A stretch of 38,295 bases of DNA from positions 1 through 38,295 of the IMG/VR virus record IMGVR_UViG_3300034106_004093; one strand, written 5' to 3'. Under the pieces are notes generated by a model, which was given only the letters and a program-made list of their open reading frames with translations, did not search any database and was not told the DNA's origin. Of the stretch, positions 5,804 to 32,828 are shown one piece after another. The DNA is from a virus. Position 1 is the stretch's first letter. The number at the start of each line of letters is the position of its first letter. A program made the translations under genes and the position numbers.

Positions 5804-6237
5804 TGCCTCTGAACTTTCCATCATCTCCGTCACCCAATCAGTTGTACTCTGCTTTTGGCAAGACATGGCGGTGGAACGGCGAGGGGTGGGAAGCCTATGG
5901 GGTGCTGCCGTCCACTGGCTCACTTGGGGTAAAGGGAACGAGCGGAGAGATTGATGTCAGCATCAGCGGAGCCACCTATATCATTGGACTGCCAAACGAT
6001 GTACAGATAGCGAATTCACTGACCACTCAATATTTGAATATTGGCGGCAACACTTTCAGCGGTGGACCGAGTGGAATCACCCTTGGATCGTCTTTGGGAA
6101 TAGTTGGCGATATAAATATCACAGGAAAACTGCTTGTTGATGGAATAATTGTTTCCAAGACAGGCTTCAGCGGATTCACGCTAGACAGTGATGTGGAACC
6201 GATCACGGATGTTTCCCTTGACGGAGGAGAATTCTAA
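5803..6237 (+). CDS. Short fibre-like protein ending in DGGEF
   Basis: This 144-residue protein opens with PSSPSPNQLYSAFGKTWRWN, a form of the FPxSPxxNQxYxxxGKxWxWNG head module common at the N-terminus of phage tail fibres. Then come Gly/Ser/Thr-rich beta segments like those in the neighbouring giant fibres (ITLGSSLGIVGDINITGKLL). It is short for a complete fibre and may be a connector or a truncated relative. It ends in DGGEF, one of several GG-x-aromatic endings in this cluster; the GGAGGAG encoding it also forms the ribosome site for the next gene. It is coupled to the previous gene by TAATG. Confidence 0.75.
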   Translation: MPLNFPSSPSPNQLYSAFGKTWRWNGEGWEAYGVLPSTGSLGVKGTSGEIDVSISGATYIIGLPNDVQIANSLTTQYLNIGGNTFSGGPSGITLGSSLGIVGDINITGKLLVDGIIVSKTGFSGFTLDSDVEPITDVSLDGGEF

Positions 6238-6239
6238 AA

Positions 6240-7469
6240 ATGGCAATCATTAGGATCAAGCGCACAACAACAAGCGAACTGCCAACTGGATTGACTTTTG
6301 GTGAGTTGGCGTTTGTTGGTGCTAGTGGTGGCTACACTGCCAATCGTTTGTATATTGCTGGTCCCGCAGGAACCTGTTTGTGGATCGGGGCACAAATTCT
6401 AAACGCTCCCGCCTTCTGGGATGGAATTACTGCCCAAACAACCGTTCCAACAGTTTCTGCCGTATTCCAAAATACTGTTGCGCGAGTAGGAACTTCTGGA
6501 GACTGGAGAAAAAATAGCGTAGCGGTTTACGGAGCAACAGGCGGAATTACTCTGTCGGGAGTTACTTGGGCTGGCAGCGTCAATCCTGTTTTGGTCACAC
6601 AGCCGTCTTGGGGAATATCGGCGGGGACGGTATTGACTGGCATGACCCCAATGGAAATCTTAGAACTAATGCTTGTTCAGTATTTGCCTCCATCATTTAG
6701 CAGTTTTAGTATTGCTTTTACAACTCATACTGGAGTAAACCTATCATCTACAACAGCAATACCAATTGGATTGACTCTTGATAACGATAGTGCGGATATA
6801 TCCTTTGCTACCACCAATACAACAAATATTGCCAGAAACAACAATAATGCTCGCGGAGCAACATTCTATGTCGCTTCCATGAGTACAGGAACTGCAATTC
6901 AAGGAGACAATATCAGCAGTGCTTCTGGATTGGGTTTCACTGCAAATGTGGCAAGCGGATCGTATGTTGGGTTTAATCCCACTGTAAAGTACAAGGGACT
7001 CAGCCTTGTTAGTAACGGTTCGTATCCATCCGTACAGTTCAGAATAGACGGAACGAATACACAGGGTACCATTTTCAACAGAACCTATACCTACACATTC
7101 TATCCAAGAATGTTCTATGGGTGGCATCCTGACACATCACTGACACACCCACCAGACGCATGGAAAGCCACCAACAGAGTAAGTGGAATGACAAGTGGAG
7201 TTCTTACAACTGCTTCAAACACTACTCAACCGAACATAACATTCGTGCCAGAAACTCCTGGCGGATCTCAATATCTTTACTTGTGGCTGCACAATTCGTT
7301 TACCCCCGCCTCATTCAAAGACAACTTGAGTGGATTCGGATTTGGATTTGAACCTGCCGTGGTTGCACACGGAGTCACACTTGATGATGGTGTCACAAAG
7401 CAGTCGTACAAAATGTACAGATCAACATATGCGTTGAACCTTGCACAAAACATTACTATTGGACCTTGA
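6240..7469 (+). CDS. Fibre protein, cassette copy A gene 1 (paralogue of the gene at 16664)
   Basis: This 409-residue protein begins with a compact head module: IIRIKRTTTSELPTGLTFGE then LAFVG and LYIAGPAG. That layout resembles the Mtd-type/fibre N-terminal modules that attach fibres to the virion. It shares several landmarks in the same order with the product of 16664-18010: SGDWRK near residue 85, LSGVTW near 102, ME(I)LELMLVQY, a YPRMFYGW segment, YLYLWLHNS and SYKMYRS near the end. The centre is Ser/Thr/Asn-rich and probably beta-structured. A strong GGAGGAG ribosome site lies at 6223-6229. The function is inferred as a receptor-binding or fibre component; no enzyme motif is visible. Confidence 0.8.
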   Translation: MAIIRIKRTTTSELPTGLTFGELAFVGASGGYTANRLYIAGPAGTCLWIGAQILNAPAFWDGITAQTTVPTVSAVFQNTVARVGTSGDWRKNSVAVYGATGGITLSGVTWAGSVNPVLVTQPSWGISAGTVLTGMTPMEILELMLVQYLPPSFSSFSIAFTTHTGVNLSSTTAIPIGLTLDNDSADISFATTNTTNIARNNNNARGATFYVASMSTGTAIQGDNISSASGLGFTANVASGSYVGFNPTVKYKGLSLVSNGSYPSVQFRIDGTNTQGTIFNRTYTYTFYPRMFYGWHPDTSLTHPPDAWKATNRVSGMTSGVLTTASNTTQPNITFVPETPGGSQYLYLWLHNSFTPASFKDNLSGFGFGFEPAVVAHGVTLDDGVTKQSYKMYRSTYALNLAQNITIGP

Positions 7470-7497
7470 GTATTATCATAAACTAATAAGGTAATAT

Positions 7498-9420
7498 ATG
7501 CCATCAATTCCAGGCACAATCCAACTAACATCTCCAATTTCTCCGCAGACTACGGAGAACAATTATTATGTTACTGATCCTCAGTACGGATTGGGTGGAC
7601 TTCGAACGGTTGGCACTACTGCTGAACTTGAGGCAATCTACGATCTTCGCCGTCAAAAGGGAATGATCGTATATGTTGAAGGTGCGTCTGCCTATTATGC
7701 ACTGATTGGAACTACCTTCAACGCAGGATGGACAACAGGATTTACATTTGGAAGTGGTGGTGGGGGTGGCGGAGGAATAGTAGGCGATTATGTCGTATCT
7801 TTCAATGGTAACACAGGAGCAGTTTCTGGTGCATCCCTTGGTGCCAACATATTTGTTGGTCTAAACTCATTCTATGCAGGAATATCTGCTTCTGGCATTT
7901 CAGCAAACACAATAGTTACAAGTGCAGGAATCACTGTTGCTGGTGTGGCAGTATTCAACAGCGGAGTGACACTTAATGGTCGTCTTGATGTCATTGGAGA
8001 TGCAGAATTTGATGGAAATGTAACTCTAGGAAATGCGTCAACCGACAACATAAACGCAACCGGAACTTTTCAGGGCATAACAGTATCTGCCAGACCGGGC
8101 ATATTCAACTCGGGAATATCTGTTGCAGCGGTTGGCTCCACTTTCGGAGGAACGGTACTAGTAAGCGGAGGTGCAACCCTTTCTGGTCGTGTTGATGTTG
8201 GCGGAATACTTGATGTGGTTGGTGGAGCAACATTTGAATCTAGTCTTGATGTAACTGGACTGGCAGTTTTTGGAACTAGAGGTGGAGTAACATATCCGTT
8301 CTCTAATCTTGCAGCAGGAACCTGCCTCGGTCAAGGAATTTCGTTTGCGGTACTGAGCAATGCTGCGTTCAACGGAAATGTTCTCATTGGTCCAAGTGGA
8401 GGAGTTATTTCCGGAACTACTCTTGGAGTAGTGTATGTTCGCAGTGGAACCACCTTTGAAAGAGATGTGAATTTCTCTGCTGCGGTTCGTGCCACTACAT
8501 TCACTGGAAATCTTACTGGTAATGTAACTGGTAATGCTGATACTGCTACAAATGCTACAAATGCTACGAATGCAATAAATGCTTCTAATTTTGGTGGTCT
8601 GTCCCATACCGCTTACGCAAAACTAGGTTCTGCCAATACATTTACTGATGCTCTAAACACATTTAATAATGATGTGAGCATAGGAAAGACACTTACCGTT
8701 GGTGGAAATTTCTATGTAACCGGAACCGTAACCACCGTAAACAGAACAGAACTTGCTGTTGACGACATCAAAGTAAGTCTTGGAACCACCACTGGTTCTA
8801 TGACAGATGTTTTGGCGGATGGTGGTGGTATTGTCCTCAAAGGAACTACAGATAAAACCTTCACATGGGTTAACTCTACCGATGCGTGGACAAGCAATCA
8901 GCACATTGATTTGTCTAACAATCAGTGGGCTTATAAAATTGCAGGCATAACTGCACTCGAAGGCACAACTCTTGGTGCTGCCGTAGTAAGTTCTAGCCTT
9001 ACCAGAGTAGGAACTATCAACACTGGTGTCTGGGAAGGAACAGTTGTTGGAATTACCTATGGTGGCACTGGAAGAAATCTTGGTGGCGGAACAAACTGGG
9101 GACTTATCTACAAGAGCAGTGATAACACTCTGCAAATTACCTCCGCTGGTACTGTAAATGATGTACTGCAAGGAAATGCTTCTGGTGCCCCAACATGGGT
9201 GAATCGTTCTACACTGACAGGATTGACTGCTGACAAAGTTCGTTTGACTGGAGAAACAGGAATAAATGTGAATGTGCCTCTAGTATATGCCAGCACAGTA
9301 ATTTCAATAGGTGATAGAGTAGAAGGACTAAGACACGATACCGGACTATACTATAATCCTTTGTTTCAGACTCTTTTTGCCGAAAAAATAGAAGGCACAA
9401 TAGACGGCGGAACATGGTGA
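7498..9420 (+). CDS. Repeat fibre protein, cassette copy A gene 2 (paralogue of the gene at 18026)
   Basis: This is a 640-residue fibre-type protein. The N-terminal module, with YGLGGLRTVGTTAELEAIYD, then RRQKGMIVYVEGASAYYALIG, is nearly repeated in the protein at 18026. A poly-Gly linker at about residues 89-95 (nt 7756-7782) follows. The rest is Gly/Ser/Thr/Ala repeats of the kind GATLSGRVDVGGILDVVGG. The late segment LTVGGNFYVTGTVTTVNRTE with VDDIKVSLG is a pattern I recall from marine phage fibres. The segment starting GGVTYPFSNLAAGTCLGQ recurs in the giant fibre at 9684. It ends in IDGGTW. A modest AAGG ribosome site precedes the ATG. Confidence 0.8.
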   Translation: MPSIPGTIQLTSPISPQTTENNYYVTDPQYGLGGLRTVGTTAELEAIYDLRRQKGMIVYVEGASAYYALIGTTFNAGWTTGFTFGSGGGGGGGIVGDYVVSFNGNTGAVSGASLGANIFVGLNSFYAGISASGISANTIVTSAGITVAGVAVFNSGVTLNGRLDVIGDAEFDGNVTLGNASTDNINATGTFQGITVSARPGIFNSGISVAAVGSTFGGTVLVSGGATLSGRVDVGGILDVVGGATFESSLDVTGLAVFGTRGGVTYPFSNLAAGTCLGQGISFAVLSNAAFNGNVLIGPSGGVISGTTLGVVYVRSGTTFERDVNFSAAVRATTFTGNLTGNVTGNADTATNATNATNAINASNFGGLSHTAYAKLGSANTFTDALNTFNNDVSIGKTLTVGGNFYVTGTVTTVNRTELAVDDIKVSLGTTTGSMTDVLADGGGIVLKGTTDKTFTWVNSTDAWTSNQHIDLSNNQWAYKIAGITALEGTTLGAAVVSSSLTRVGTINTGVWEGTVVGITYGGTGRNLGGGTNWGLIYKSSDNTLQITSAGTVNDVLQGNASGAPTWVNRSTLTGLTADKVRLTGETGINVNVPLVYASTVISIGDRVEGLRHDTGLYYNPLFQTLFAEKIEGTIDGGTW

Positions 9421-9431
9421 TATAAAAGGAG
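9421..9431 (+). promoter_or_regulatory. TATAAAA box merging into AAGGAG ribosome site
   Basis: TATAAAAGGAG directly follows the stop of the 640-residue fibre gene. The AAGGAG part is a good ribosome site 6 nt before the ATG at 9438. The TATAAAA part only partly resembles the late-promoter box, so the promoter role is doubtful. Confidence 0.35.
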
Positions 9432-9437
9432 AACCCC

Positions 9438-9659
9438 ATGAGTGAACCTAATTACAATGAAACTGTTGTTATTCCCCTTTTGCAAAACAAGTTCAAGGAA
9501 CTGACCAATCAGAATCTTGTTCTTGAAGCCAATCTCATGGTAGAGCGAGAGCGAAACGCTTTCCTGTCCGCACAGATCGCTGAACTACAATCAAAAGTGG
9601 AATCGCAGTCTAAGCGAAAGAAGCGTGAAGAGCCACAGTTGGACGGACAGGTCTACTGA
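9438..9659 (+). CDS. Small coiled-coil protein of the NET family, cassette copy A gene 3
   Basis: This is a 73-residue protein. The N-terminal motif NYNETVVIPLL, followed by LTNQNLVLEANL, is shared with the proteins at 19806 (plus strand) and 32614 (minus strand). From about residue 10 to 55 it is strongly helical with a heptad pattern, so a coiled coil is likely. A basic KRKKR patch follows, and the end is LDGQVY. Its place between the same two fibre genes as its paralogue at 19806 suggests a matched helper for those fibres, for example an oligomerisation or assembly factor. That role is inferred. AAGGAG gives a good ribosome site. Confidence 0.8.
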   Translation: MSEPNYNETVVIPLLQNKFKELTNQNLVLEANLMVERERNAFLSAQIAELQSKVESQSKRKKREEPQLDGQVY

Positions 9660-9683
9660 TTGGTCACTACATACTGATACACT

Positions 9684-12600
9684 ATGGCAACGATCAAGAT
9701 CAAGAACAGCACATTAGCGACAGCGAACCCACCAACAGGTCTTGCGGCAGGTGAGTTGGCAGTCAACATTCCCCAAGGACGGATGTTTATTGGGAATGGT
9801 TCCACCACTATTGAACTTGCTGGTCTTGCAGGCAACACCTTTACCGGAAATCAGATATTTGGAGTGTGTGGAGGGGTAACATACCCTTTCTCAAACATTC
9901 CAGCAGGGACTTGTCTTGGTCAGGGGATGACATTCACTGTATTGAGTAATGCTGCGTTCAATGGAAATGTCATTATTGGTCCGAGCGGCGGTAGAATTGT
10001 TGGTGGAACCACTCAGGGCGTGATGTATGTGCGAGTAGGAACCACATTCGAAAAGAATGTTAATGTGTCTGGAATTTTAACTGCCACAAACATAATTATT
10101 GGAGGAAGTCTTGGTATTGATGGAGATGTAACATTTTCTGGTGGAGCAGGAATAAGTGGCGGATCAGGGCAATTTCCAAACGGCGTAACAACTAGTTATC
10201 TGTATGTTTCCAAAGGAACAACACTAAATGGATTTTTGCAGGTAAACGCAGGAACAACCTTTTCTGGAACAACCGACTTTGCCAATGTTGCTAGATTTAA
10301 TGCTGGAGTAACATTTGGATCACCAGGTTTGTCTTCTGATATAAATGTGTGGGGTTCAGCCAATTTAGCAAGAGGTCTTTATGTTGGAGGTTATCTAGAC
10401 GGGGCATCTTATGGTGTAACATTTGGAACACCAGTAATGTTTAATTATGGATTTATCCAAAGAAGACCAACAGACATCATAGAAAATGCTGGTGGTTTTA
10501 TTAACTCAGGGGGTGCTACATTTGATTCCACTGTAGCGGTTAGAACTTTAACAAATGATGCCAACAAATCAGGCGGAATCGGACTAACTCTCAGCATAAT
10601 AACCAACCCCTACTTTACTAGTAAGGGAAATCTATATGTTAGAACTACTGGCGACATAATACTGTCAACGGCAGCAGCATCAGGTGTTGGTGGAGATACG
10701 CCAAAATTAGAAATTTTCGGAAACGATAATGCAACAGGATTGGTTTCCGTGAACGGTGGTGATGTTTACCTTGGAAGTAAAATGGGAGCAAGCGGTATAA
10801 CTGTTCCTGTTGCCATTCGGTTTGGAAATCACACAAATGCTTTTGTCACAGTTTTTAATGCCAGTACATCAGGAAGCAATAAGGGAATTACACTTCCAAA
10901 TGCTTCTGGAACTGTTGCACTAGACACAACCGAAAATACATTTACTGCCCTACAGTCTTTGTTAGCAGGAATCTCTGCCAGCGGTGCCACATTCAATGGA
11001 ATGATTGGTGCTTACAGGGGAATCTCTGCCAGCGGTGCCACATTCAATGGAATGATTGGTGCATATCAAGGAATATCAGCAAGTGGTGCCACATTCAATG
11101 GAATGATTGGTGCTTACAGGGGAATCTCTGCCAGCGGTGCCACATTCAATGGAATGATAAGTGCTTACAGGGGAATATCAGCGTTTGGTGCTACTTTTAG
11201 TGGATCGGTTATTGCCCCTACCAGACCTTTTGGAACAAACGACGATACGGTTGCAACCACTGCGTTTGTGTTGGCAAACAGCAGTTCTACGAATGTGGTG
11301 AAGTCTGTCAATGGTCGGACTGGTGATATATCCATCTCTGACGGACAAGGAATATCATTTGTAAACCGAGCGGGAGATGATTGGGAAATCCTTCCAAGAA
11401 TAGACTACTTGTATACAACTGGTCTTGGTGAATTGGTTGCATCGCAAGAACCTTATAGGGGAATTACATTTTCAATTTATGAAGATTTCCTTGTAGCAAG
11501 TGGTCCATCATTCATTCCATCCAACGATTATATTCTAATCAAATCCGCAGTTACCAGAAATGGAGATGTAGAATATCCCAGTCAGATGTATCTTACAACG
11601 CTAGGGCATCTTAAATTATGGATCAATGGTGCAGGAACCGTTCCAGGATTTGCAGAGGATGAAGCATTTTTTATAAATGGAATCACAGTTGGTGGAACTG
11701 CTGCCTTCCAAAAACAGGCAACTTTCAATGCACTGACACAATTCAACGCAGGAATCTCTGCTGCGGGTGGCATAACTCTAGGATCTCCAAGCCTCACAGG
11801 AACACCCACAGCACCAACAGCAGCATTGGGCACCAACACCACGCAGATCGCAACCACTGCTTTTGTTCAGTCAGAAATTGCCGCTGATGCAGTCACTTCA
11901 TTCAACGGGCGCACTGGTGCAGTTCAGGGAGTATCTGCTGCGGTGGCAGGTAATGGAATCTCAGTATCAGGTGCTACTGGTGCGGTCACCATCACCAACA
12001 CAGGTGTGACCCGAGCCGTTGCTGGCACTGGTATTAGTGTAAATGCCAACACAGGAACCGTGACAATCACCAACAGCGGTGTCACTAGCCTTGCGGCAGG
12101 AACTGGTGTTGCCGTAAGTGCAGGAACTGGTGCAGTGACTGTCACCAATATCGGAGTTCAGTCGTTCAACGGGCGCACTGGTGCGGTCACGGGTGCATCG
12201 CTTGGTGCGAACACCTTCACAGGTCTACAGACATCCGCTACGGGCTTTAGCGGTCCATTGACTGGAAATGCCACAAGTGCAACCAATGCTTCTCAACTGG
12301 GTGGAGTTGCTGCTGCCAGTTACGCACTGCTAGCATCTCCAACATTCACAGGAACACCTGCATCAACCACTGCTGCCGTTGGAACAAACACCACACAGAT
12401 TGCCACCACCGCATTCGTTCAGAATGAGATTGTTGCCGATACGGTCACTGCTTTCAACGGGCGCACTGGTGCGGTACAAGGTGTCTCTGCTGCTGTGGCA
12501 GGCAGTGGAATTTCAGTATCGGCTGCAACTGGTTCTGTAACAATTTCGAACACTGGTGTCTTGTCTTTTAATGGTTCTACAGGTGCGGTGACGGGTGCAT

Positions 12601-15600
12601 CTCTTGGCGCGAACACATTCACTGGTCTACAGACATCGGCTACAGGTTTCAGCGGTCCACTCACAGGAAACGCTACCACTGCTACAACAGCAACCAACTC
12701 CACCCAACTTGGGGGAGTAGCAGCAGCAAGTTACGCACTACTGGCATCTCCCACATTTACGGGAACCCCCGCATCAACCACTGCCGCCGTTGGAACCAAC
12801 ACAACACAAATTGCCACCACTGCATTTGTCAATGCAGAAATTGCCGCTGATGCAGTCACCGCTTTCAACGGTCGCACTGGTTCGGTGCAAGGCGTATCTG
12901 CTGCTGTCGCTGGTGACGGCATTACCGTTTCAGGTGCAACAGGTGCAGTCACCATCACCAATGCGGGTGTGACCAGAGCCGTTGCTGGAACTGGTATAAG
13001 TGTAAATGCAAATACTGGCACTGTGACAATTACTAACAGTGGTGTCACTAGTCTTGTCGCAGGAACTGGTGTTGCCGTAAGTGCAGGAACTGGTGCAGTT
13101 ACTGTTACGAATATCGGTGTACAGTCATTTAATGGACTGACTGGTGCTGTTACAGGAGTTACAACAGGAACAGCAAATACGTTTGGTCCTATTCAAAGTT
13201 TTACCACAGGCATATCTGCATTGGGTGGTACATTTTCTGGACAATTAAGTGCTCAAAACTTTAGAGCACTGACTATTGGTGGAGATGAGGGTGGTCAGAT
13301 TGATTTTGGTTTACCTACAACAAATACCAGTTTAACTGGTGGTGTTTCAATCGATGTATTTCAAAATAGAGTTCGTATTTTTGAAAGCGGTGGAACAAAT
13401 CGTGGTGTATTTATTGATTTAACAGGTGTAAGTGCCAGTGCAGGAACAAATCTTATTGGTGGTGGGGCAGTTTCATCTGTTTCAGGATCTGGAAATGGTA
13501 TTTTGGTGTCACCGACTACAGGTGCTGTGGTAATACAAAATACTGGTGTACATTCATTCAATGGAGCCACTGGTGCAGTCACGGGTGCATCTCTTGGCGC
13601 GAACACATTCACTGGTCTACAGACATCGGCTACAGGTTTCAGCGGTCCACTCACAGGAAATGCAACCACAGCAACGACTGCCACAAATTCCACCCAATTG
13701 GGTGGAACAGCCGCCGCTTCTTGGGCACTCCTTGCATCACCAACCTTTACGGGAACTCCTGCATCAACCACCGCTGCTGTTGGAACCAACACCACACAGA
13801 TTGCGACTACTGCTTTTGTAAATAATGAAATAATTGCTGATGCGGTCACTTCATTCAACGGGCGCACTGGTGCAGTTCAGGGAGTATCTGCTGCGGTGGC
13901 AGGTAATGGAATCACCGTATCAGGTGCCACGGGTTCTGTAACAATTACCAATGCGGGTGTCACCCGAGCCGTTGCTGGCACTGGCATCAGCGTAAATGCA
14001 AATACTGGTACGGTTACAATCACGAATAGTGGTGTCCTGTCGTTCAACGGAAACGCTGGTGCGGTCACAGGCGCGTCGCTCGGTGCCAACACCTTCACAG
14101 GTCTACAGACATCGGCTACGGGTTTCAGCGGTCCACTCACTGGAAACGCAACCACTGCCACAACAGCAACCAATTCCACTCAATTGGGTGGAACAGCCGC
14201 CGCTTCTTGGGCACAACTAGCAGCAGCAAATACATTCACAGCACTGAATACATTTAACTCTGGAATAAAGAGTAATGTCTATGAGCCTCTTACGGGTGGA
14301 GCAGGAGTAACGATTGGATCATTGAGCGGCGGTGGAAGCGGAACCGTCCATGTTCTGTCCAGTGAGATGCGAATCGGCGGAACAGGAACCCTGCAAGGGG
14401 TCACACTGGCAACTCTGAGTGGCGTGACTATGACTGTTCTTCCGCGACATAATTTGATTGTATCTGCGATAGGAACTATAACCATTCAACCTCAAGTGAG
14501 TTCTGTTGGTGTTGGTAGTATGCCGAGCGTATTGATTCAAAATACTGACAATGGAAGTGGACAGATTCGTATATCTGGCGGAAACCTGTATCTTGGAACA
14601 CGATATAATGGAGTTGCGGATATATCATCCGACATAATTTTTGGAAATCCAAACAACGCTTTCACCACTACACTCACCGCGCCAAATACTGCAACGAGCA
14701 ACAAGACCATCACCCTTCCAAATGCCACGGGAACAGTTGCGGTTGATGCAGCAGCAAACACATTCACCGCACTGAACACATTCAACAGTGGAATCACTAC
14801 TTCTGTAATCTATGCATCTACTGGTTCTACATTTGGCGGAACCTTGCAGGTAAACGGTGGAGCAACCCTCGCAGGAAGAATTGATGTTGGTGGGATTCTT
14901 GATGTTGTCGGTGGAACAACTCTTGAGTCAACACTCGATGTTGTCGGAGTTGCACGATTCGCCGCAGGAGTCACAGTTTCTGGTACTCTTGACGGAACCA
15001 CTGCGGCTTTTAGTCGTTTGGTAACCTTCAGACAGGGAATCTCTGCCGCTGGTGGAATCACTCTGGCATCTCCTAATCTAACAGGAACACCAACTACAGT
15101 AACTCCTCCAATTCAATTTGATAATTCAACACAAATTGCAAACACAACATGGGTTACTAACTTCTTCGCAGGTGCTGTAAATAACAATGTCAATTTTGGT
15201 GCTGATATTGCAGTAAACGGTGGTGATATTACAACTACCGCTGCCACTGCCACATTATTTAATGCTAATGCCACTACCCTGAGCATTGGCGGAGCAGCAA
15301 CCACCACGAATCTAGCAACCGCCGCATCAGGACTGACCCTGAACATTGGAACCGGAGCAAACGGTTCCGGCATCAAGAACATCTACATTGGAACTGGTCC
15401 TGTTGGCGGAGGATCGGCACGGACAACCATAGGATACAACGGCGGTCTTATTGTCAGCCACGGAAGTGGAATAACCCTGAGTGATAGCGGTGGTGGCTAT
15501 TTCGTAAACATCCGCTCTGCCACCACGAACATTACAGGAACACTGAACGCCAGCGGTTCTCTGAACTCCACAGGACTGTTCACCACAAGCGGTGGGTTGT

Positions 15601-16037
15601 CCGCTGCTGGTGGAATCACATTCAATACAGGAATGGTTGTAACAGGAACCGTGAACGCCAGCGGTCTGCTGAATTCCACTGGCGGAATCTCTGCAAGCGG
15701 TGGAGTCACATTCAACACCCCAATCGTGTCTACCCGAATGGCACGAACATCTTCGGGTGTGTTTGACACCAGAACTGGAAGTTTCAGCCCCACCGAAGCA
15801 GACAACGGCAAGATTTTTGTCATCGACATCAGCGGAAAAACCTCTATCACAGTAACATTGGAAGGGCTTTCCACTGGTTGGAGAGCAAAGTTCCTGTGCC
15901 TTGGCGGAGCAACCAGTTTCAGCAGCACCACAGGAAATGTTTTTGGATCATTCGGAGCAAACGGAAGCGGGTTCCTATCATCAACAGAGTGTGTGGAAGT
16001 CCACTGCTACGCAAGCAACACATACCATGCATCATAA
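9684..16037 (+). CDS. Giant 2117-residue repeat tail fibre, cassette copy A gene 4
   Basis: This is the largest gene in the window. The N-terminal head module (IKIKNSTLATANPPTGLAAG, then ELAVN and MFIGNG) matches that of the genes at 6240, 16664 and 20446. The body is a mosaic of repeats. There are five 17-residue GISASGATFNGMIGAYR-type units. There are at least four blocks of SFNGRTGAVQG...GISVSGATGAVTITN...GASLGANTFTGLQT. There are also four SPTFTGTP...GTNTTQIATTAFV units, a classic phage fibre repeat. IQNTDNGSGQIRISGGNLYLG and SNKTITLPN modules recur in the gene at 23423. The C-terminal domain, about the last 90 residues, is non-repetitive (VFDTRTGSFSPTEADNGKIF) and may be the tip. No Shine-Dalgarno is visible at the start. 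The role is probably a long trimeric fibre. Confidence 0.88.
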   Translation: MATIKIKNSTLATANPPTGLAAGELAVNIPQGRMFIGNGSTTIELAGLAGNTFTGNQIFGVCGGVTYPFSNIPAGTCLGQGMTFTVLSNAAFNGNVIIGPSGGRIVGGTTQGVMYVRVGTTFEKNVNVSGILTATNIIIGGSLGIDGDVTFSGGAGISGGSGQFPNGVTTSYLYVSKGTTLNGFLQVNAGTTFSGTTDFANVARFNAGVTFGSPGLSSDINVWGSANLARGLYVGGYLDGASYGVTFGTPVMFNYGFIQRRPTDIIENAGGFINSGGATFDSTVAVRTLTNDANKSGGIGLTLSIITNPYFTSKGNLYVRTTGDIILSTAAASGVGGDTPKLEIFGNDNATGLVSVNGGDVYLGSKMGASGITVPVAIRFGNHTNAFVTVFNASTSGSNKGITLPNASGTVALDTTENTFTALQSLLAGISASGATFNGMIGAYRGISASGATFNGMIGAYQGISASGATFNGMIGAYRGISASGATFNGMISAYRGISAFGATFSGSVIAPTRPFGTNDDTVATTAFVLANSSSTNVVKSVNGRTGDISISDGQGISFVNRAGDDWEILPRIDYLYTTGLGELVASQEPYRGITFSIYEDFLVASGPSFIPSNDYILIKSAVTRNGDVEYPSQMYLTTLGHLKLWINGAGTVPGFAEDEAFFINGITVGGTAAFQKQATFNALTQFNAGISAAGGITLGSPSLTGTPTAPTAALGTNTTQIATTAFVQSEIAADAVTSFNGRTGAVQGVSAAVAGNGISVSGATGAVTITNTGVTRAVAGTGISVNANTGTVTITNSGVTSLAAGTGVAVSAGTGAVTVTNIGVQSFNGRTGAVTGASLGANTFTGLQTSATGFSGPLTGNATSATNASQLGGVAAASYALLASPTFTGTPASTTAAVGTNTTQIATTAFVQNEIVADTVTAFNGRTGAVQGVSAAVAGSGISVSAATGSVTISNTGVLSFNGSTGAVTGASLGANTFTGLQTSATGFSGPLTGNATTATTATNSTQLGGVAAASYALLASPTFTGTPASTTAAVGTNTTQIATTAFVNAEIAADAVTAFNGRTGSVQGVSAAVAGDGITVSGATGAVTITNAGVTRAVAGTGISVNANTGTVTITNSGVTSLVAGTGVAVSAGTGAVTVTNIGVQSFNGLTGAVTGVTTGTANTFGPIQSFTTGISALGGTFSGQLSAQNFRALTIGGDEGGQIDFGLPTTNTSLTGGVSIDVFQNRVRIFESGGTNRGVFIDLTGVSASAGTNLIGGGAVSSVSGSGNGILVSPTTGAVVIQNTGVHSFNGATGAVTGASLGANTFTGLQTSATGFSGPLTGNATTATTATNSTQLGGTAAASWALLASPTFTGTPASTTAAVGTNTTQIATTAFVNNEIIADAVTSFNGRTGAVQGVSAAVAGNGITVSGATGSVTITNAGVTRAVAGTGISVNANTGTVTITNSGVLSFNGNAGAVTGASLGANTFTGLQTSATGFSGPLTGNATTATTATNSTQLGGTAAASWAQLAAANTFTALNTFNSGIKSNVYEPLTGGAGVTIGSLSGGGSGTVHVLSSEMRIGGTGTLQGVTLATLSGVTMTVLPRHNLIVSAIGTITIQPQVSSVGVGSMPSVLIQNTDNGSGQIRISGGNLYLGTRYNGVADISSDIIFGNPNNAFTTTLTAPNTATSNKTITLPNATGTVAVDAAANTFTALNTFNSGITTSVIYASTGSTFGGTLQVNGGATLAGRIDVGGILDVVGGTTLESTLDVVGVARFAAGVTVSGTLDGTTAAFSRLVTFRQGISAAGGITLASPNLTGTPTTVTPPIQFDNSTQIANTTWVTNFFAGAVNNNVNFGADIAVNGGDITTTAATATLFNANATTLSIGGAATTTNLATAASGLTLNIGTGANGSGIKNIYIGTGPVGGGSARTTIGYNGGLIVSHGSGITLSDSGGGYFVNIRSATTNITGTLNASGSLNSTGLFTTSGGLSAAGGITFNTGMVVTGTVNASGLLNSTGGISASGGVTFNTPIVSTRMARTSSGVFDTRTGSFSPTEADNGKIFVIDISGKTSITVTLEGLSTGWRAKFLCLGGATSFSSTTGNVFGSFGANGSGFLSSTECVEVHCYASNTYHAS
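10968..11216 (+). repeat. Five tandem 51-bp coding units (17 residues each)
   Basis: Units start at 10968, 11019, 11070, 11121 and 11172. The first four are near-identical and encode GISASGATFNGMIGAYR or close variants; the fifth has drifted (GISAFGATFSGSVIAPT). The reading frame is kept, so unit gain or loss would lengthen or shorten the fibre without a frameshift. Confidence 0.93.
11892..11960 (+). repeat. 69-bp patch identical to 13845-13913
   Basis: Reading base by base, 11892-11960 and 13845-13913 are identical over 69 bases within the same fibre gene. Flanking bases differ. It encodes part of the SFNGRTGAVQGVSAAVAG module. Confidence 0.93.
12591..12670 (+). repeat. 80-bp patch identical to 13581-13660
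   Basis: 12591-12670 and 13581-13660 are identical over 80 bases. They encode the GASLGANTFTGLQTSATGFS module and the start of the following PLTGN segment. Adjacent sequence differs at several positions, which fits recombination between modules. Confidence 0.93.
13581..13660 (+). repeat. Second copy of the 80-bp patch
   Basis: This is the partner of 12591-12670, 990 bases downstream within the same gene. Confidence 0.93.
13845..13913 (+). repeat. Second copy of the 69-bp patch
   Basis: This is the partner of 11892-11960, 1953 bases downstream within the same gene. Confidence 0.93.
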
Positions 16038-16605
16038 TCCGAATTCTTATCTGCTGTCTACCATATACAGATGGGCAAGATTCAATGGCTACGGTCGGGA
16101 CTGTGCCTATCGGCGTTTTTTGTTTCTCCGAGGGCTTTCTTTCGGATCAGTGCTTGATGTGGGGTCTGGTCCGTGTCTGCTGCGGGGATGGTTGCAGGAA
16201 AACGGGATAACTGCGGACTACGAAGCGGTTGACATCCGTGCAGACGCACTTGCGCTCTGTGATTGCCCCACATATCACTCTATACCGCAGCAAAAGGCGT
16301 ATGATCTTGTGTGTCTGTTCGGAACCGTGACCTACAACATAGACCACGATGAAGCACGGAACAAAGAAGTGCTGCGCGACCTACTGCGGCAGTCAATTGG
16401 GGTGTGTCGAAAGTGGTTGGTGTTCACTGTGTTCAGGGAAAGCATTCGGAAAAAAAACGAACACAACATCCCACAGGACTTTTTTGTGTATTTCAGCCGC
16501 GAAGAGATCGGGGAAATGCTTGAGGGATTGGGCATATATCGGTTCGGTATAGTGGAAGACGACCGCCTTGACGATCAGGAATACTTTGTGGCGTGCCAAC
16601 CGTAA
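16027..16605 (+). CDS. Class I SAM-dependent methyltransferase (substrate unknown)
   Basis: This 192-residue protein has a Rossmann-type methyltransferase core. Motif I is VLDVGSGPC at residues 42-50, an acidic post-I residue lies in YEAVDIRA (Asp69), and AYDLVCLFGTVTYN at 91-104 fills the motif IV area. There is no DPPY/NPPY-type motif, so DNA adenine methylation is less likely; the SAM fold resembles small-molecule or protein methyltransferases. I chose the ATG at 16027, which overlaps the end of the giant fibre by 11 bases; longer in-frame versions would run inside that gene. It sits between the two copies of the fibre cassette and is followed by a TATAAATA box. It might modify a fibre or a host surface molecule, but that is speculation. 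Confidence 0.8.
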   Translation: MHHNPNSYLLSTIYRWARFNGYGRDCAYRRFLFLRGLSFGSVLDVGSGPCLLRGWLQENGITADYEAVDIRADALALCDCPTYHSIPQQKAYDLVCLFGTVTYNIDHDEARNKEVLRDLLRQSIGVCRKWLVFTVFRESIRKKNEHNIPQDFFVYFSREEIGEMLEGLGIYRFGIVEDDRLDDQEYFVACQP

Positions 16606-16608
16606 GGG

Positions 16609-16616
16609 TATAAATA
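16609..16616 (+). promoter_or_regulatory. T4-type late promoter box TATAAATA
   Basis: This is a perfect TATAAATA, the T4 late-promoter consensus read by the gp55-type sigma. It sits 3 nt after the methyltransferase stop and 47 nt before the ATG at 16664. The predicted leader of about 42 nt contains AGGAAG before the ATG. It would start transcription of cassette copy B. Confidence 0.7.
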
Positions 16617-16663
16617 CATTTACGGTGCGGTAGCGTCACAATATTTGAATATAGGAAGCACTC

Positions 16664-18010
16664 ATGCCAACAACAATCGTCATACGCCGTGGATCAGCGG
16701 CTCCAACAGCGGCATCAGGACTCACGCTTGGTGAGCCAGCGTTCAACTCCACAGACCAGACACTTCACATTGGTCGCGGAACGGGTGTAACCGCAGCATG
16801 GGTGGGGGCACGAATCAATGGTCTGTCTTCAGATATTGCCGCAGGACTCACGCTACAGATTCCTACACTGGCGGCGGTAAAGAATTATGTTACGGATTAT
16901 GTTGCTAGCAACACTTCTGGCGTGGCTAGCCTGAACTCACTCACAGGCACTCTGAACATTCTCGGTGGTTCAAATATTGGAATCTCTGCTGCATCAGGCA
17001 GCATCACAGTGACGAACAATGGTGTTCGCACATTGGGTGTGAGTGGCGATTGGAAAAAAGCCGTCGTAACCATTTTTGGTGGATCAACTGGTGCTCTGCT
17101 TGTTTCGGGTGCAACATGGGGATCAGCAACCGTGACTAATGCTGGAAATGTGGGTGGAATTGCCAACGGAACGAACCTTGCAGGCAAGACTGTGTTTGAA
17201 ATTATCGAAAGCCTCCTGTTCTCGTATCAGACCGTATCGTTTGCGTCTGCCGCCATAACAGCAGGAACATTCACTACGGGCAACCTTGAATTGGGACAGA
17301 CCGCCGCTGCTTCAGGCAACTATACATTCTCTTGGACGGTAAACAACTCTTCGAATGTGGACTCCACAGGCATGACGGTGATCTACACGGGTGGAGGCGG
17401 AATCGGATCAGGTAGCGTGATCGGTGCAACAGCGTATTCTCCCACCACAGGACGAGTAGGCAATCTCGGCATCAATGCCCGTGGACTGACCATCGGCAGT
17501 TCGTTCTCCATGACCGCACAGGCAAGCCAAGCAACCGCATATGCAGCAGCAGGATCTCCAGGAACCACCAGCGGCGCAACTGCTTCTAGTTCGCTCGGAA
17601 CCGCTACATGGTATTCAAAAATCTACTACGGATACACCACAGGCACATCCATCACCGGTCGGTCGCAACTAGTCACCACGGGAATGGGCAGCAGCGAAAG
17701 ACTCATCACCAGTACCAGCACTTCTCTTTCGTTTGCTAATGGAAGCGGAACCACGCTTGCATTTACCCCCGCATCGGGAGGAGGATCGGGACTCAAGTAT
17801 CTGTATGTGCTTGTGCATGACTACTACGGTGCAATAAGCAACTGGTACGACGCAAGCAACAACTTGCAGTTCGGCATGACAGGAAACGGCGGAGCAGTCA
17901 TTGGAGCAACACTCTCCATTACGAATGCTCAGGGTTTTGCGTCAACATACAAGGTGTATCGTTCAGCCGAAGCCACAGACACTTCTTATATCTCAATCTA
18001 CTCCGCCTGA
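16664..18010 (+). CDS. Fibre protein, cassette copy B gene 1 (paralogue of the gene at 6240)
   Basis: This is a 448-residue protein. The head module IVIRRGSAAPTAASGLTLGE, then AFNSTDQTLHIGRG, parallels those at 6240, 9684 and 20446. An inserted segment with LNSLTGTLNILGGSNIGIS, absent from copy A, follows. The shared landmarks then appear: SGDWKK, LVSGATW, FEIIESLLFSY, YSKIYYGY, LKYLYVLVHDYYG and TYKVYRS near the end. The middle is Gly/Ser/Thr-rich. Order and landmarks match copy A, but DNA identity looks low, so the duplication is old or one copy came from a relative. A probable receptor-contact protein, directly behind a TATAAATA box. Confidence 0.8.
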   Translation: MPTTIVIRRGSAAPTAASGLTLGEPAFNSTDQTLHIGRGTGVTAAWVGARINGLSSDIAAGLTLQIPTLAAVKNYVTDYVASNTSGVASLNSLTGTLNILGGSNIGISAASGSITVTNNGVRTLGVSGDWKKAVVTIFGGSTGALLVSGATWGSATVTNAGNVGGIANGTNLAGKTVFEIIESLLFSYQTVSFASAAITAGTFTTGNLELGQTAAASGNYTFSWTVNNSSNVDSTGMTVIYTGGGGIGSGSVIGATAYSPTTGRVGNLGINARGLTIGSSFSMTAQASQATAYAAAGSPGTTSGATASSSLGTATWYSKIYYGYTTGTSITGRSQLVTTGMGSSERLITSTSTSLSFANGSGTTLAFTPASGGGSGLKYLYVLVHDYYGAISNWYDASNNLQFGMTGNGGAVIGATLSITNAQGFASTYKVYRSAEATDTSYISIYSA

Positions 18011-18025
18011 TAAAGCGAGAACCAC

Positions 18026-19774
18026 ATGGCAGACTTTCCAAGCACAAATGTAAGAATCAACAGCCAACTGAGTCCGTATACGGACGCACAGACCTTTCCG
18101 CTGTTTGACACTGCCCACGGACTGGGTGGTCTGCGAACCGTTGGCACCACGGCTGATCTAAACAACATCTTCGACCGTCGCCGCGTTCGTGGCATGATGG
18201 TGTATGTGAGTGGCGTGTCTGCATACTACGCACTCATTGGCACCACAGCGAACAGCGGATGGACAACCGAATTTCAGATGGGCACGGGAACAAACATCCT
18301 TCCTCTGAACAATACATTCACAGGTCAAAATATATTTACTCAGGGAGTTTCTTTTGATAGTGCAGTTGATTTTACTTCTGGAATGGAATTGCGTTCTTAT
18401 GGACTGACAGTAATAAGCAGCGATGCATATCAAAACACCACTTTTGAAAAGAACGGACAAACAGTACTACAGACAGGTACTGGTGTAGAAATACCAAGTT
18501 CCTCTTCTGGTTTTTCTGTTGCAACTGGATCTACATTTGACGGAACTGTAGCCTTTTCCAACACAATACAGGGAACAACCGCATCTTTCTCTCGTCTGGT
18601 CACAGCCAGTGCAGGAATCTCTGCCTCTTTTGTAAGATCACAGTCTCATAGAGGACTTTGTGCAAACGCAGAAATGGTCATGTCCTCCAGTGGTGAGATT
18701 TCAATCGTATCACCGACGAATGTTCTTATTGGCGATCTTGCCCCGAACTATGGCGGTTCTGAAAACGGAATATCCATCAGTCGTGCATCAAACAGTGTTG
18801 TAATAAGCACAGGCAACGCAACAATCGGTGCTGTTGGCGCTCCTGACATATCAACAAGTGCGTCTGGTGTTAGGGCACACACCCTGTTTACTGCTAGTTC
18901 CGGAATCTCTGCTGCTGGTGGCATAACCCTTGCAGGCAATCTATCAGGAACCACAGCATCTTTCTCTCGTCTGGTCACAGCCACACAGGGAATCACAAGC
19001 AGCAGCCTGAACACCACAAGGATTCAGGCATACGGCGGTTCCACATTTGACTCGGATCTGTATGTGGGTGCCACACTCACGGTGGCAGGAAACTTCATAG
19101 TCAACGGAACCACCACAACCATAAACTCAACCACTATTACGGTTGACGACAAACTCATAGAGTTGGCTCACACTCCAGGCGGTTCAGCAGGAAACAATGC
19201 TGCCGCAGACGGCGGAGGTATACAGTTAAACTCTAGTCAAGGAAACAAGACCTTTACATGGGTCAATGCCACTGGAGCATGGACTAGCAGCGAAGACTTT
19301 AACCTGTTGACTGGCAAAGTTTATGAAATCAACGGCACCTCTGTTCTGTCTAGCAGCACTCTTGGAAGTGGAATCACCACATCAAGCCTGCAAGCAGTAG
19401 GAACCATCAGCAGCGGTGTCTGGCAGGGAACAGTTGTTGGTGCAACCTACGGAGGAACAGGGCGCTCCACCTATACCATAGGAGATGTTCTGTATGCAAA
19501 CGGAACCAGTTCACTAACGGTTCTAGGTGCCTCTACAGCGGGAAGATTGTTGTCTTCCAACGGTGCTGGTGCTGCGCCTGAATATAAGCAACTTATAATT
19601 CGTGATGCAGATGCTACAACTGTTGCAACAGAGTCTTCTGGAACAGGAACCCTTGTTATGACAATACAAAACGCAAGCACCACGGTGAAGGGGCTTGCAC
19701 GGTTTGATCCTCTCAATTTTACCGTGAGCGGATTGAGTGCTTCCGTCACGGCAATAGACGGCGGCAGTTACTGA
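18026..19774 (+). CDS. Repeat fibre protein, cassette copy B gene 2 (paralogue of the gene at 7498)
   Basis: This is a 582-residue fibre. The N-terminal region, with HGLGGLRTVGTTADLNNIFD and RRRVRGMMVYVSGVSAYYAL, is plainly homologous to copy A. The middle has GGTL/GTTASFSRLVTA-type beta repeats. A later LTVAGNFIVNGTTTTINSTT module with VDDKLIELA is a form I recall from marine phage fibres, followed by KTFTWVNATGAWTSSEDF and GVWQGTVVGATYGGTGR, both also present in copy A. It ends in IDGGSY, against IDGGTW in copy A. It starts 15 bases after the previous stop with only a weak GCGAGAA ribosome site. Confidence 0.82.
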   Translation: MADFPSTNVRINSQLSPYTDAQTFPLFDTAHGLGGLRTVGTTADLNNIFDRRRVRGMMVYVSGVSAYYALIGTTANSGWTTEFQMGTGTNILPLNNTFTGQNIFTQGVSFDSAVDFTSGMELRSYGLTVISSDAYQNTTFEKNGQTVLQTGTGVEIPSSSSGFSVATGSTFDGTVAFSNTIQGTTASFSRLVTASAGISASFVRSQSHRGLCANAEMVMSSSGEISIVSPTNVLIGDLAPNYGGSENGISISRASNSVVISTGNATIGAVGAPDISTSASGVRAHTLFTASSGISAAGGITLAGNLSGTTASFSRLVTATQGITSSSLNTTRIQAYGGSTFDSDLYVGATLTVAGNFIVNGTTTTINSTTITVDDKLIELAHTPGGSAGNNAAADGGGIQLNSSQGNKTFTWVNATGAWTSSEDFNLLTGKVYEINGTSVLSSSTLGSGITTSSLQAVGTISSGVWQGTVVGATYGGTGRSTYTIGDVLYANGTSSLTVLGASTAGRLLSSNGAGAAPEYKQLIIRDADATTVATESSGTGTLVMTIQNASTTVKGLARFDPLNFTVSGLSASVTAIDGGSY

Positions 19775-19805
19775 TACCAATCCCTAATGTGAAAGGAAAT
19801 ACATC

Positions 19806-20423
19806 ATGGACAAGAATCCAAACGAAACCATACTCGTTCCCATGCTCAACCGGCGGGTCGCTGACCTGACTGTAACGAACATTCTGCTTGAAGCCCGTTT
19901 GACATGGGAAGAGAGTGAAAAAAAGCGGATTGCAGATGAACTGCTCCAAGAACAGGAGAAGCACAGTGCTCTTCAGCAGGGACAGGCAGATCACCAAGCA
20001 GCGATTGCAGCGGCAGAAGAACGAGGTCGGCAGTCCGCACTCGTTGCGTGGGAAACGGAAAAGTCTGCACTGCTGTGCTCTTTTGAAGACCAGAAGCGCG
20101 ACCTGAACGCTTCTATTGCAAACGCGGTGGCTGATGTGAAGCGTGCGTCAAGTATGGATATCGGTTTTGCGAATGCACAACGGGACGAGATTGGGCGTGA
20201 GTGCGAGGCGCTGAGGGTCAGAATTGCAGAACTGGAGTCCCGTGCAGAACACCTGTCCGCAGCAAAGGCAGAACGCGACCTGCTTGCCACCGAAAACGCA
20301 GAATTGCAGTCGCGTGTGGCAAAATTGCAGGCGGAAGTAGACTCTCTGACGCAACCAGCACAGGTGATTGCCCCAAAGAAGCGTGGCAAGAAGGTGGCTG
20401 TAATGGGTGGAGACACCTACTAA
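19806..20423 (+). CDS. Coiled-coil protein of the NET family, cassette copy B gene 3
   Basis: This is a 205-residue protein. The N-terminus (NPNETILVPMLNRR, then LTVTNILLEARL) matches the short proteins at 9438 and 32614. The remainder, to about residue 180, is almost entirely Ala/Glu/Arg/Leu helix with heptads (EESEKKRIADELLQEQEK; ELESRAEHLSAAKAERDLL), predicting a long coiled coil. A basic KKRGKK patch and the end MGGDTY follow; the 73-residue paralogue has the same order of basic patch then terminal motif. It is 2.8 times longer than copy A because the coiled coil is extended. AAAGGAAA is the ribosome site. A role as a structural spacer or assembly partner is inferred. Confidence 0.82.
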   Translation: MDKNPNETILVPMLNRRVADLTVTNILLEARLTWEESEKKRIADELLQEQEKHSALQQGQADHQAAIAAAEERGRQSALVAWETEKSALLCSFEDQKRDLNASIANAVADVKRASSMDIGFANAQRDEIGRECEALRVRIAELESRAEHLSAAKAERDLLATENAELQSRVAKLQAEVDSLTQPAQVIAPKKRGKKVAVMGGDTY

Positions 20424-20426
20424 ATA
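20420..20426 (+). promoter_or_regulatory. CTAAATA late-promoter-like box overlapping a stop codon
   Basis: CTAAATA contains the TAA stop of the coiled-coil gene and lies 19 nt before the TTG start at 20446. It matches the other short boxes in the window. Assignment is by motif only. Confidence 0.4.
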
Positions 20427-20431
20427 AGGGC

Positions 20432-20436
20432 AGGAG
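20432..20436 (+). promoter_or_regulatory. AGGAG ribosome site that decides a TTG start
   Basis: AGGAG lies 9 nt before TTG at 20446. No ATG is available upstream in frame, and the residues after TTG line up with the head module of sister genes, so TTG is the likely initiation codon. Confidence 0.6.
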
Positions 20437-20445
20437 ACACACGCC

Positions 20446-21342
20446 TTGCCCACGCAGATTCAAATAAAGCGCGGCTCTACCACGCCATCGGGACTGACAA
20501 CCGGTGAATTTGCCGTCAATACATCCACAAGCCAAGTGTGGATAGGCACTGGTAGCGGCAGTGTATGGGTGGGTGGAGAGGTCACCGGTGGAACAGACAT
20601 GGGTGGTGGCTTGGTCGCCTCGCAGAACAGAGTTCCCACACAAAGTGGTGTATACAATTATGTGCGTGGAAACTTTGTGGCATCTTTCAATGGGCGCACT
20701 GGTTCAGTTCAAGGTGTATCTTCTGCCGCTGCTGGTGATGGAATTTCTGTATCAGGTGCAACTGGTTCAGTCACTTTTACAAACACAGGAGTGACCCGAG
20801 CAGCGGCAGGAACAGGCATTTCTGTGTCGGCAAATACGGGAACAGTCACAATCACCAATACTGGTGTGCTGTCATTTAATGGAAATGTTGGTGCAGTCAC
20901 TGGTGCATCCCTCGGTGCCAACACCTTCACTGGTCTACAAACCCTCACCGCAGGACTGTCTGCAAGCGGCGGCATCACATTCGGTTCCAATGTGACCATC
21001 AACGGAAACCTGAACGCAACAACAAAGTCATTCGTGATTCCACACCCCACCCGCAAGAATGCCACTCTGCACTACGGATCATTGGAAGGACCAGAACACG
21101 GCGTGTATGTGCGCGGAAGGCTAACGGGAGAGAGTACCATCACCCTTCCAAAGTATTGGAGCAAACTGGTGGACGAGGAGTCCATCACCGTGACCCTTAC
21201 ACCCATTGGTTCCGCAACTCCACACTTCGTGAAGTCCGTGAGCAGCAAAGCCGTGAAGATCGGCAGCAGCGGAGAGATTGACTGCTTCTACATGATTAAT
21301 GCCGAGCGCAAGGATGTTCCCAAACTGCAAGTGGAGTATTGA
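20446..21342 (+). CDS. Short tail fibre with conserved C-terminal tip domain, cassette copy B gene 4
   Basis: This is a 298-residue protein read from a TTG start. The head module (IQIKRGSTTPSGLTTGEFAV, then VWIGTG) is the same type as in the giant fibre at 9684. The middle has one copy each of the SFNGRTGSVQG, GISVSGATGSV and GASLGANTFTGLQT modules that the giant fibre carries many times. The C-terminal domain, about residues 195-298, holds KSFVIPHPTRKNATLHYGSL and EGPEHGVYVRGRLTG, a domain I recall at the end of many marine phage fibres. It differs from the giant fibre's tip. It is effectively a minimal version of the fibre in copy A. Confidence 0.82.
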   Translation: MPTQIQIKRGSTTPSGLTTGEFAVNTSTSQVWIGTGSGSVWVGGEVTGGTDMGGGLVASQNRVPTQSGVYNYVRGNFVASFNGRTGSVQGVSSAAAGDGISVSGATGSVTFTNTGVTRAAAGTGISVSANTGTVTITNTGVLSFNGNVGAVTGASLGANTFTGLQTLTAGLSASGGITFGSNVTINGNLNATTKSFVIPHPTRKNATLHYGSLEGPEHGVYVRGRLTGESTITLPKYWSKLVDEESITVTLTPIGSATPHFVKSVSSKAVKIGSSGEIDCFYMINAERKDVPKLQVEY

Positions 21343-21344
21343 AC

Positions 21345-26730: not shown

Positions 26731-26733
26731 TCC

Positions 26734-31120: not shown

Positions 31121-31164
31121 CAAAATGGAGAGAACTCTGCATTGGATTGTTTCGTAATACTGGC

Positions 31165-31171
31165 AAAGGAG
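31165..31171 (+). promoter_or_regulatory. AAAGGAG ribosome site that fixes the protease start
   Basis: AAAGGAG sits 6 nt before the ATG at 31178. An upstream in-frame TTG at 31142 has no such site, so the protein should begin MVLPLLAAL, giving a short hydrophobic N-terminus. Confidence 0.7.
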
Positions 31172-31177
31172 ATCATC

Positions 31178-32589: not shown

Positions 32590-32615
32590 CAAACCCCCTT
32601 TCGGGGGTTTGCTTT
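32590..32615. terminator. Bidirectional terminator between convergent genes
   Basis: The stem CAAACCCCC / GGGGGTTTG (32590-32611, 9 bp) with a TTTC loop is followed by GCTTT on the plus strand; on the minus strand it is followed by TTGTTTT. It lies between the protease stop and the stop of the minus-strand coiled-coil gene and can serve both. Confidence 0.85.
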
Positions 32616-32799
32616 ACTCTGCTGTTTCGGCAACAGGAGGCGCAGTCAGCGCGTCCAGTTTCTTTTGCAGTGCTGCCTTTTCCTTTTCGGCAATCTGCAA
32701 CTTGGCTTCAAGCAGGATGCCCTGCGTCATCAGTGTATTGATCTTGTCCTGTAGGATGGGAATCAGCACGGTTTCATTGTAATTCTCTGCCTCAATCAT
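32614..32799 (-). CDS. Small coiled-coil protein of the NET family, third copy
   Basis: This is a 61-residue protein. NYNETVLIPILQDK, then LMTQGILLEAKL, matches the N-termini of the proteins at 9438 and 19806. The helix continues with heptads (QIAEKEKAALQKKLDALTAP) and ends in a short acidic tail (VAETAE) without the GG-aromatic ending. Unlike the other two it lies outside the fibre cassettes and on the opposite strand. It has its own TATAAATA box and a strong AAAGGAGG ribosome site, so it is probably well expressed late. Its function is unknown. Confidence 0.82.
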   Translation of the reverse strand: MIEAENYNETVLIPILQDKINTLMTQGILLEAKLQIAEKEKAALQKKLDALTAPPVAETAE

Positions 32800-32820: not shown

Positions 32821-32828
32821 TATTTATA
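32821..32828 (-). promoter_or_regulatory. T4-type late promoter box TATAAATA, minus strand
   Basis: A perfect TATAAATA on the minus strand ends 21 nt before the start codon at 32799. The predicted start site falls at the edge of the ribosome site, giving a very short leader. It is back to back with a plus-strand CCTAAATA at 32832. Confidence 0.65.

Follow-up and report, generated by a model that had tools for sequence, protein, structure and literature searches.

How does a phage come to carry two sets of fibre genes side by side? The question is raised by the IMG/VR record IMGVR_UViG_3300034106_004093, a complete record classed as linear, which was analysed over its whole length of 38,295 bases (the window). 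The gene content of the window is that of a T4-like phage, with a DnaB-type helicase, a primase, ThyX, a fibre region, a ribonucleotide reductase (named from its own sequence), and a RuvC-like gene. A close cultivated relative was searched for and not found. In the fibre region, the genes A1 to A4 (set A) are followed by a methyltransferase-like gene and by the genes B1 to B4 (set B). The initial annotation explained the two sets as one four-gene fibre cassette, duplicated in tandem with its order preserved. All eight open reading frames (ORFs) exist at the coordinates and lengths that it gave (Table 1). However, the sets are probably of different origin and differently built, and share an exchangeable block made of the end of gene 1 (the tip domain) and the start of gene 2 (the N-terminal module, Nmod). 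In other words, set B is more likely a mosaic than a copied set.

Gene-by-gene comparison of the two sets

Sets A and B were compared within the window by BLASTP. A2 and B2 are 35% identical over 587 amino acids (aa), which is most of their length (E = 2.8e-57). A1 and B1 match in the C-terminal domain (40% over 95 aa, E = 7e-11), and A3 and B3 match over 34 aa (41%, E = 2.4e-6). The landmarks on which the correspondence had been based are largely present: SGDWRK/SGDWKK, YLYLWLH/YLYVLVH, and YKMYRS/YKVYRS in gene 1, and GLGGLRTVGTTA, SAYYALIG, and the ends IDGGTW/IDGGSY in gene 2. A further gene 1 landmark, LSGxTW, is found as LSGVTW in A1 but as VSGATW in B1. The ordered correspondence is real but uneven, strong for gene 2 and partial for genes 1 and 3.

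A counterpart is the closest relative within the genome for A1/B1 and A2/B2, but not for A3 and A4. The nearest relative of A3 in the window is a third gene of the NET family (43% identity, versus 32% to B3), which had been overlooked when A3 and B3 were paired. The third gene is syntenic in L059, L060, L071, L072, L077, and L087 (L numbers denote the related phages and loci), and L053 has a NET gene in the equivalent position. The best partner of A4 is the fibre gene at 23423 (E = 5e-56), ahead of B4 (E = 2e-40). The repeat common to A4 and B4 is unspecific, being found also in the gene at 3051, and the C-termini of the two differ; their pairing as counterparts is not upheld. The heads of A1 and B1 are only 31% identical. 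A clean tandem duplication of four genes is thus not supported, in view of the heads, gene 3, and gene 4. What the two sets do have in common by descent is the gene 1 tip and the gene 2 Nmod.

Differences in length had been taken as a sign that one ancestral set was split into two specialised sets, perhaps for two receptors. Among relatives, however, the length of A4 varies between 197 and 2117 aa and that of B3 between 75 and 205 aa, so the contrast does not reflect such a split. The methyltransferase-like gene and a TATAAATA box had been described as separating the copies. The methyltransferase-like gene (Pfam Methyltransf_23, E = 0.004, below the cut-off) follows A4 in relatives too; it therefore belongs to set A and is no neutral spacer. 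The box is real. TATAAATA occurs five times in the window against 0.49 expected, and the copy 55 bases before B1 fits late gene regulation of the T4 type, so that set B is predicted to have a late promoter box of its own.

Within set A, aa 253-333 of A2 (8254-8496) and aa 54-135 of A4 (9843-10088) are 70% identical, which suggests module copying inside the set.

Distribution of the sets and of the tip/Nmod block

Both sets are found in the same order in L003/L005 and L006/L018, where A matches A and B matches B. L175 has the single-set arrangement that the initial annotation had named as support for a duplication: as in the window, primase, ThyX, a collagen-like gene, and two structural genes flank the place, and A1-A2-A3-A4 follow in the same syntenic position without set B. 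Five phages (L053, L059, L060, L072, and L087) are kin by their RuvC-like (74-94%) and reductase (88-92%) genes and have neither set as in the window. They have one long fibre, which lies beside the collagen-like gene towards the reductase. The head of this resident fibre in relatives without set A is 58-70% identical to the head of B1. Since the B1 head is only 31% identical to that of A1, set B would have grown from the resident fibre.

Intermediate forms of set B are found in other relatives. L023 has set A and then one fibre with a B1 head. In L004, a B1 head and a B2-like core are joined in one gene, followed by a fibre with a B4 head; B3 is absent, and the fused gene lacks the gene 1 tip. 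In L026, L027, and L031, the B1 head, the core, and the B2 C-terminus are fused in one gene, followed by B3 and a B4-headed fibre. The fused gene of L026/L031 is 66% identical to the B1 head and 57% identical to the C-terminal half of B2, and that of L031 lacks the gene 1 tip. Set B is split by the tip and Nmod in the window, L003, and L006. The simplest reading of the intermediates in L023, L004, and L026/L031 would be stepwise assembly.

Two variants of these genes stand apart. The second-set core of L026 (6869-9142; L027 11154-13493 is nearly identical) falls in the clade of A2 cores, which suggests exchange between sets. The A2 homologue of L004 (9737-12136) has two tandem copies of Nmod.

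Could set B instead have been acquired whole by horizontal transfer from another phage lineage? In the best tree of 42 columns, B3 groups with a NET subfamily other than that of A3 (the third-NET type, support 100/99), and the B2 cores are placed among widespread phage modules in the core tree. Both would fit such a transfer. The B1 head, however, is the one carried by the group's resident fibre, which is syntenic, and every phage in which a B3-type gene was found has set A as well. We consider this origin very unlikely, and the resident-type head speaks against set B having been taken whole from an unrelated phage.

The modules of the B genes do not have a single history: the head of B1 is of the resident type, and the tip and Nmod are of the A type. 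Tip and Nmod together span the boundary between genes 1 and 2, and they behave as one exchangeable unit. The Nmod gene directly follows the tip gene in 58 of 61 unique tip genes, including those of unrelated phages. In the three exceptions, the tip overlaps with the Nmod gene or lies 301 bases away from it. The pairing also holds for all 12 tips from loci fetched by other modules and for 11/11 loci fetched by the tip, most of which were already known. Named phages with the pair are Tunturiibacter phage Tunturi_5 (gp28/gp29), the Bacteroides phages DAC16 (DAC16_84/85) and SJC03 (SJC03_81/82), and the megaphage LR756502. Tips of T4-like and Bacteroides phages are only about 25% identical, with the pairing still held. 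Tandem repeats of tip/Nmod exist in L179, L190, and L218. In L174 (6729-14044), the collagen-like gene is fused to a tip and followed by an Nmod-headed fibre of 1357 aa at the same genomic place, apparently an independent insertion of the block. A scan of cultured prokaryote genomes with Nmod found no relative, and the wide alignments of tip and Nmod have too few conserved stretches for degenerate patterns.

A second block, tip'/N', replaces tip/Nmod in set A of sister phages. All nine set-A phages are concordant, having either tip/Nmod or tip'/N', and in a separate scan tip' precedes N' in 44 of 45 cases. In the sisters that carry both sets (L003 and L006/L018), the tip and N-module of A1/A2 differ from those of B1/B2. 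The correspondence of tip and Nmod in the window is therefore the state of an exchangeable block rather than a frozen duplication.

In the Nmod tree, the A2 and B2 versions form a small clade with L174 (97/80), nested in a clade of seven rows with L004 and L175 (99/95). In the tip tree, the sister group of the B1 tips is made up of L174 and the A-position tips of L004/L175 (98/98). The A2 cores form one clade (94/93), which includes the second-set core of L026, and the B2 cores are placed elsewhere. These common clades of tip and Nmod, the ordered correspondence of genes 1-3, and the single-set relative L175 would also be expected if the four-gene set had been duplicated whole, its heads, cores, and NET gene being replaced later by recombination with resident or foreign fibres; the approximately unbiased (AU) tests given below do not reject a common grouping of tips, cores, or NET proteins. 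However, the B1 head and the fused B1-head/B2-core genes occur in relatives without the tip and so pre-date or bypass a duplication. Pair 4 is unspecific, A3 is nearer to the third NET gene, and the two sets of the sister phages have no tip/Nmod in common. Duplication followed by replacement is thus an unlikely course of events.

For the mosaic origin that we prefer, the following order may be proposed. Set B would derive from the resident fibre of the phage group, whose head is kept by B1. Set A would have been inserted between this fibre and the collagen-like gene upstream of it. Three additions to the resident fibre would have followed: the core module, a NET protein of the coiled-coil type, and a second fibre with a head of its own. 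In the last step, a tip/Nmod block of the set-A kind would have split the resident fibre.

Pairing of gene ends with the starts of the next genes

Other fibre genes are paired in a similar way. Many loci have consecutive fibre genes and NET proteins that end in the signature DGGx(Y/F/W). In its strict form, it is C-terminal in 101 cases among 6301 unique ORFs, versus 6 internal occurrences in 977,896 residues. It is absent from the ends of tip genes (0/69) and tip' genes (0/46). In a non-redundant table of junctions, a DGG end is followed by a head 64 times, by a NET protein 18 times, and never by Nmod or N'. A tip is followed by Nmod in 41 of 42 cases and a tip' by N' in 11 of 12. End and start match at 116 of the 118 classified junctions. 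The recurrence of this pairing in many phages suggests a rule for fitting fibre pieces together. In a non-exhaustive search of the open-access literature (C-terminal DGG motif, collagen XVIII-like phage domains, and fibre modules spanning a gene boundary), no description of end/start pairing was found.

What kind of domains are paired? The tip model has a confident core (mean predicted local distance difference test score, pLDDT, 81.6), which is beta-rich and immunoglobulin-like. Its matches are predicted tail proteins of phages, some of them crAss-like (E down to 5e-11). A Foldseek search of the PDB gave no match to the tip at E below 0.001, the best ones being mostly immunoglobulin-like. The top matches of the Nmod model (pLDDT 75.8) are the trimerisation domain of collagen XV/XVIII, at E = 0.22 or worse and template modelling (TM) scores of 0.35-0.39 by query. 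A Klebsiella phage K1 lyase is reported to have this fold in its N-terminal domain (PMC8822698). Nmod resembles both domains as its best structural matches, but the scores are weak, and neither Nmod nor the tip has a significant sequence match in the PDB. The heads of A4, B1, and B4 match Mtd_N (PF18454) in the right place, but weakly: they score 15.4-19.8 bits, and the gathering threshold is 26.3 bits.

Each fibre gene product may be a trimeric segment, in which the small N-terminal head trimerises and the C-terminus (DGGx(Y/F/W) tail or tip domain) serves as a connector. A connector and the next head would be the matched halves of a joint, of which there would be three kinds: DGGx(Y/F/W) tail with Mtd_N-like head, tip with Nmod, and tip' with N'. 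T4 joins gp34 to the gp35/gp36/gp37 half-fibre (PMC3004832), and since the end of one segment appears to be matched to the start of the next, the pairing fits a physical joint of this kind between trimeric segments. NET proteins are located between matched partners and have a DGG-type tail as well; judged from sequence, they could be structural coiled coils or assembly factors resembling gp57A. The fibres themselves presumably bind receptors. The more general idea is a junction code, in which the C-terminus of each fibre product determines by its type which type of N-terminus comes next, and the halves of a joint are inherited together across the gene boundary, in unrelated phages. We put this forward tentatively, at slightly less than even chances.

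Tip and Nmod might also be linked without any physical joint, if Nmod were the cognate folding partner of the tip or if both halves bound one receptor. Pairs of a fibre gene followed by its chaperone gene are known, such as Pam3 gp24/gp25 (PMC9608196). Nmod, however, is fused to bodies of very varied kind and length, from 77 to 2467 aa, unlike a dedicated chaperone, and there are three distinct end/start pairings; this explanation is rather unlikely. About equally doubtful is an explanation by proximity, in which recombination takes place within the repetitive fibre bodies, whose similar repeats could act as junctions, and the end of a gene is carried along with the start of the following one. 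Against it, the pairs persist over the deep divergence of the tips described above, and mispairing between classified types is limited to 2 of 118 junctions.

Several points weigh against a mosaic origin and a junction code. The A1 tip of the window is on a long branch, and the AU test does not reject its grouping with B1-type tips (p = 0.41). Grouping of the A2 and B2 cores is not rejected either (p = 0.49), the core domain being short and its tree unresolved. The placement in the NET tree is not significant, as B3 with A-type NET proteins is not rejected (p = 0.26). Which way the changes ran, and in what order, is deduced by parsimony from contigs that are incomplete. In Lu11 and Cellulophaga phi12:1, the genes resembling Nmod have no clear tip upstream. 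The code is incomplete, as ends of the class 'other' are also found before heads (44), Nmod (10), and N' (1). Some of the loci had been selected by their downstream module, and the models of tip and tip' derive from genes lying before that module, so that the sampling somewhat favours linkage. The E-values of the Nmod fold search are weak (best 0.22), and adjacent half-genes could move together from closeness alone.

Known fibre systems and other features of the window

The locus resembles the long tail fibre locus of T4 (gp34-gp37, with the chaperones gp38 and gp57A) in its T4-like replication genes, TATAAATA late box, consecutive fibre genes whose products would join end to end, and putative small helper gene (PMC3004832). 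It differs in that the window has two sets, that NET genes lie inside the set and carry the C-terminal tail of the fibres, and that the end/start pairing is common to unrelated phages. None of the eight genes has a PHROG or Pfam match to gp34-gp38, and NET proteins are like gp57A only in size, coiled-coil-like sequence, and position. Among the T4-like cyanophages (Kyanoviridae), structural proteins of S-CAM7, Syn1, and S-RIM44 match the A2 core (37-45% over about 115-130 aa), but the C-terminal helix of the S-CAM7 fibre is a different one. In T4-like cyanophage fibres, no counterpart of B1 and no clear counterpart of NET was found. Continuing exchange of fibre domains is well described for phage receptor-binding proteins (PMC10684548). 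What is exchanged in those cases is part of a single protein, whereas the block described here crosses a gene boundary, from the end of one gene into the start of its neighbour.

Table 1. Features of the two fibre sets and of associated genes in the window
Feature	Position	Strand	Basis or remark
Small structural gene, ends LDGGEF	5803..6237	+	Directly before set A; 96% identity in L002/L003, 57-68% in L018/L023/L031/L175
A1, 409 aa: Mtd_N-like head and C-terminal tip domain	6240..7469	+	ORF; tip = aa 78-398 (hidden Markov model, HMM)
A1 tip domain, first half of tip/Nmod block	6471..7433	+	HMM match; long branch in tip tree
A2, 640 aa: Nmod, core module, C-terminal IDGGTW	7498..9420	+	ORF, BLASTP, domain alignments
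A2 Nmod, predicted trimerisation-domain-like, second half of block	7507..7734	+	Alignment, tree, fold search
A2 core module, in A-set-specific clade	8680..9057	+	Tree support 94/93
A3, 73-aa NET protein, probable coiled coil, ends LDGQVY	9438..9659	+	Family alignment
A4, 2117-aa repetitive fibre, final gene of set A	9684..16037	+	ORF, BLASTP
Methyltransferase-like gene (start codon inferred), travels with A4	16027..16605	+	Weak Methyltransf_23 match; 91% in L003, 54-55% in L024/L037
TATAAATA, predicted T4-type late promoter box before set B	16609..16616	+	Kept in L005
B1, 448 aa: resident-type fibre head and tip domain	16664..18010	+	Head identity to resident fibres; tip by HMM
B1 tip domain (structure predicted, pLDDT 81.6)	17018..17974	+	HMM, tree, model
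B2, 582 aa: Nmod, core module, C-terminal IDGGSY	18026..19774	+	ORF, domain alignments
B2 Nmod	18047..18265	+	58% identity to A2 Nmod; tree
B2 core module	19064..19450	+	Tree
B3, 205-aa NET-family coiled-coil protein, ends GGDTY	19806..20423	+	Family alignment, tree
B4, 298 aa: short fibre, Mtd_N-like head, one repeat, phrog_17490 C-terminal domain	20446..21342	+	PHROG, BLASTP
Third NET-family gene	32614..32799	-	TATAAATA box just upstream (32821-32828, minus strand); syntenic in relatives

Other paralogous or box-associated genes are found downstream of set B. Three LamG-like paralogues lie in tandem at 21339-23409 (+), with 33-40% mutual identity and a Laminin_G_3 match in the first. A tandem pair of paralogues with DUF285/BspA-like repeats is found at 25018-28446 (+), 34% identical over 575 aa. 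A subtilase at 31142-32584 (+) has a secretion-like N-terminus and two TATAAATA boxes upstream; its C-terminal repeat appears, by eye, to be dockerin-type-repeat-like. At the corresponding place, L006 has a 480-aa gene (19763), also with two TATAAATA boxes.

If the pairing of ends and starts indeed encodes the joints, one could read from sequence how the segments of multi-gene phage fibres are ordered and connected, and adjacent uncharacterised fibre genes could be assigned as partners. In this phage group, a second fibre set may have been gained not by copying a whole operon, but by splitting the resident fibre with a block made of two half-genes.

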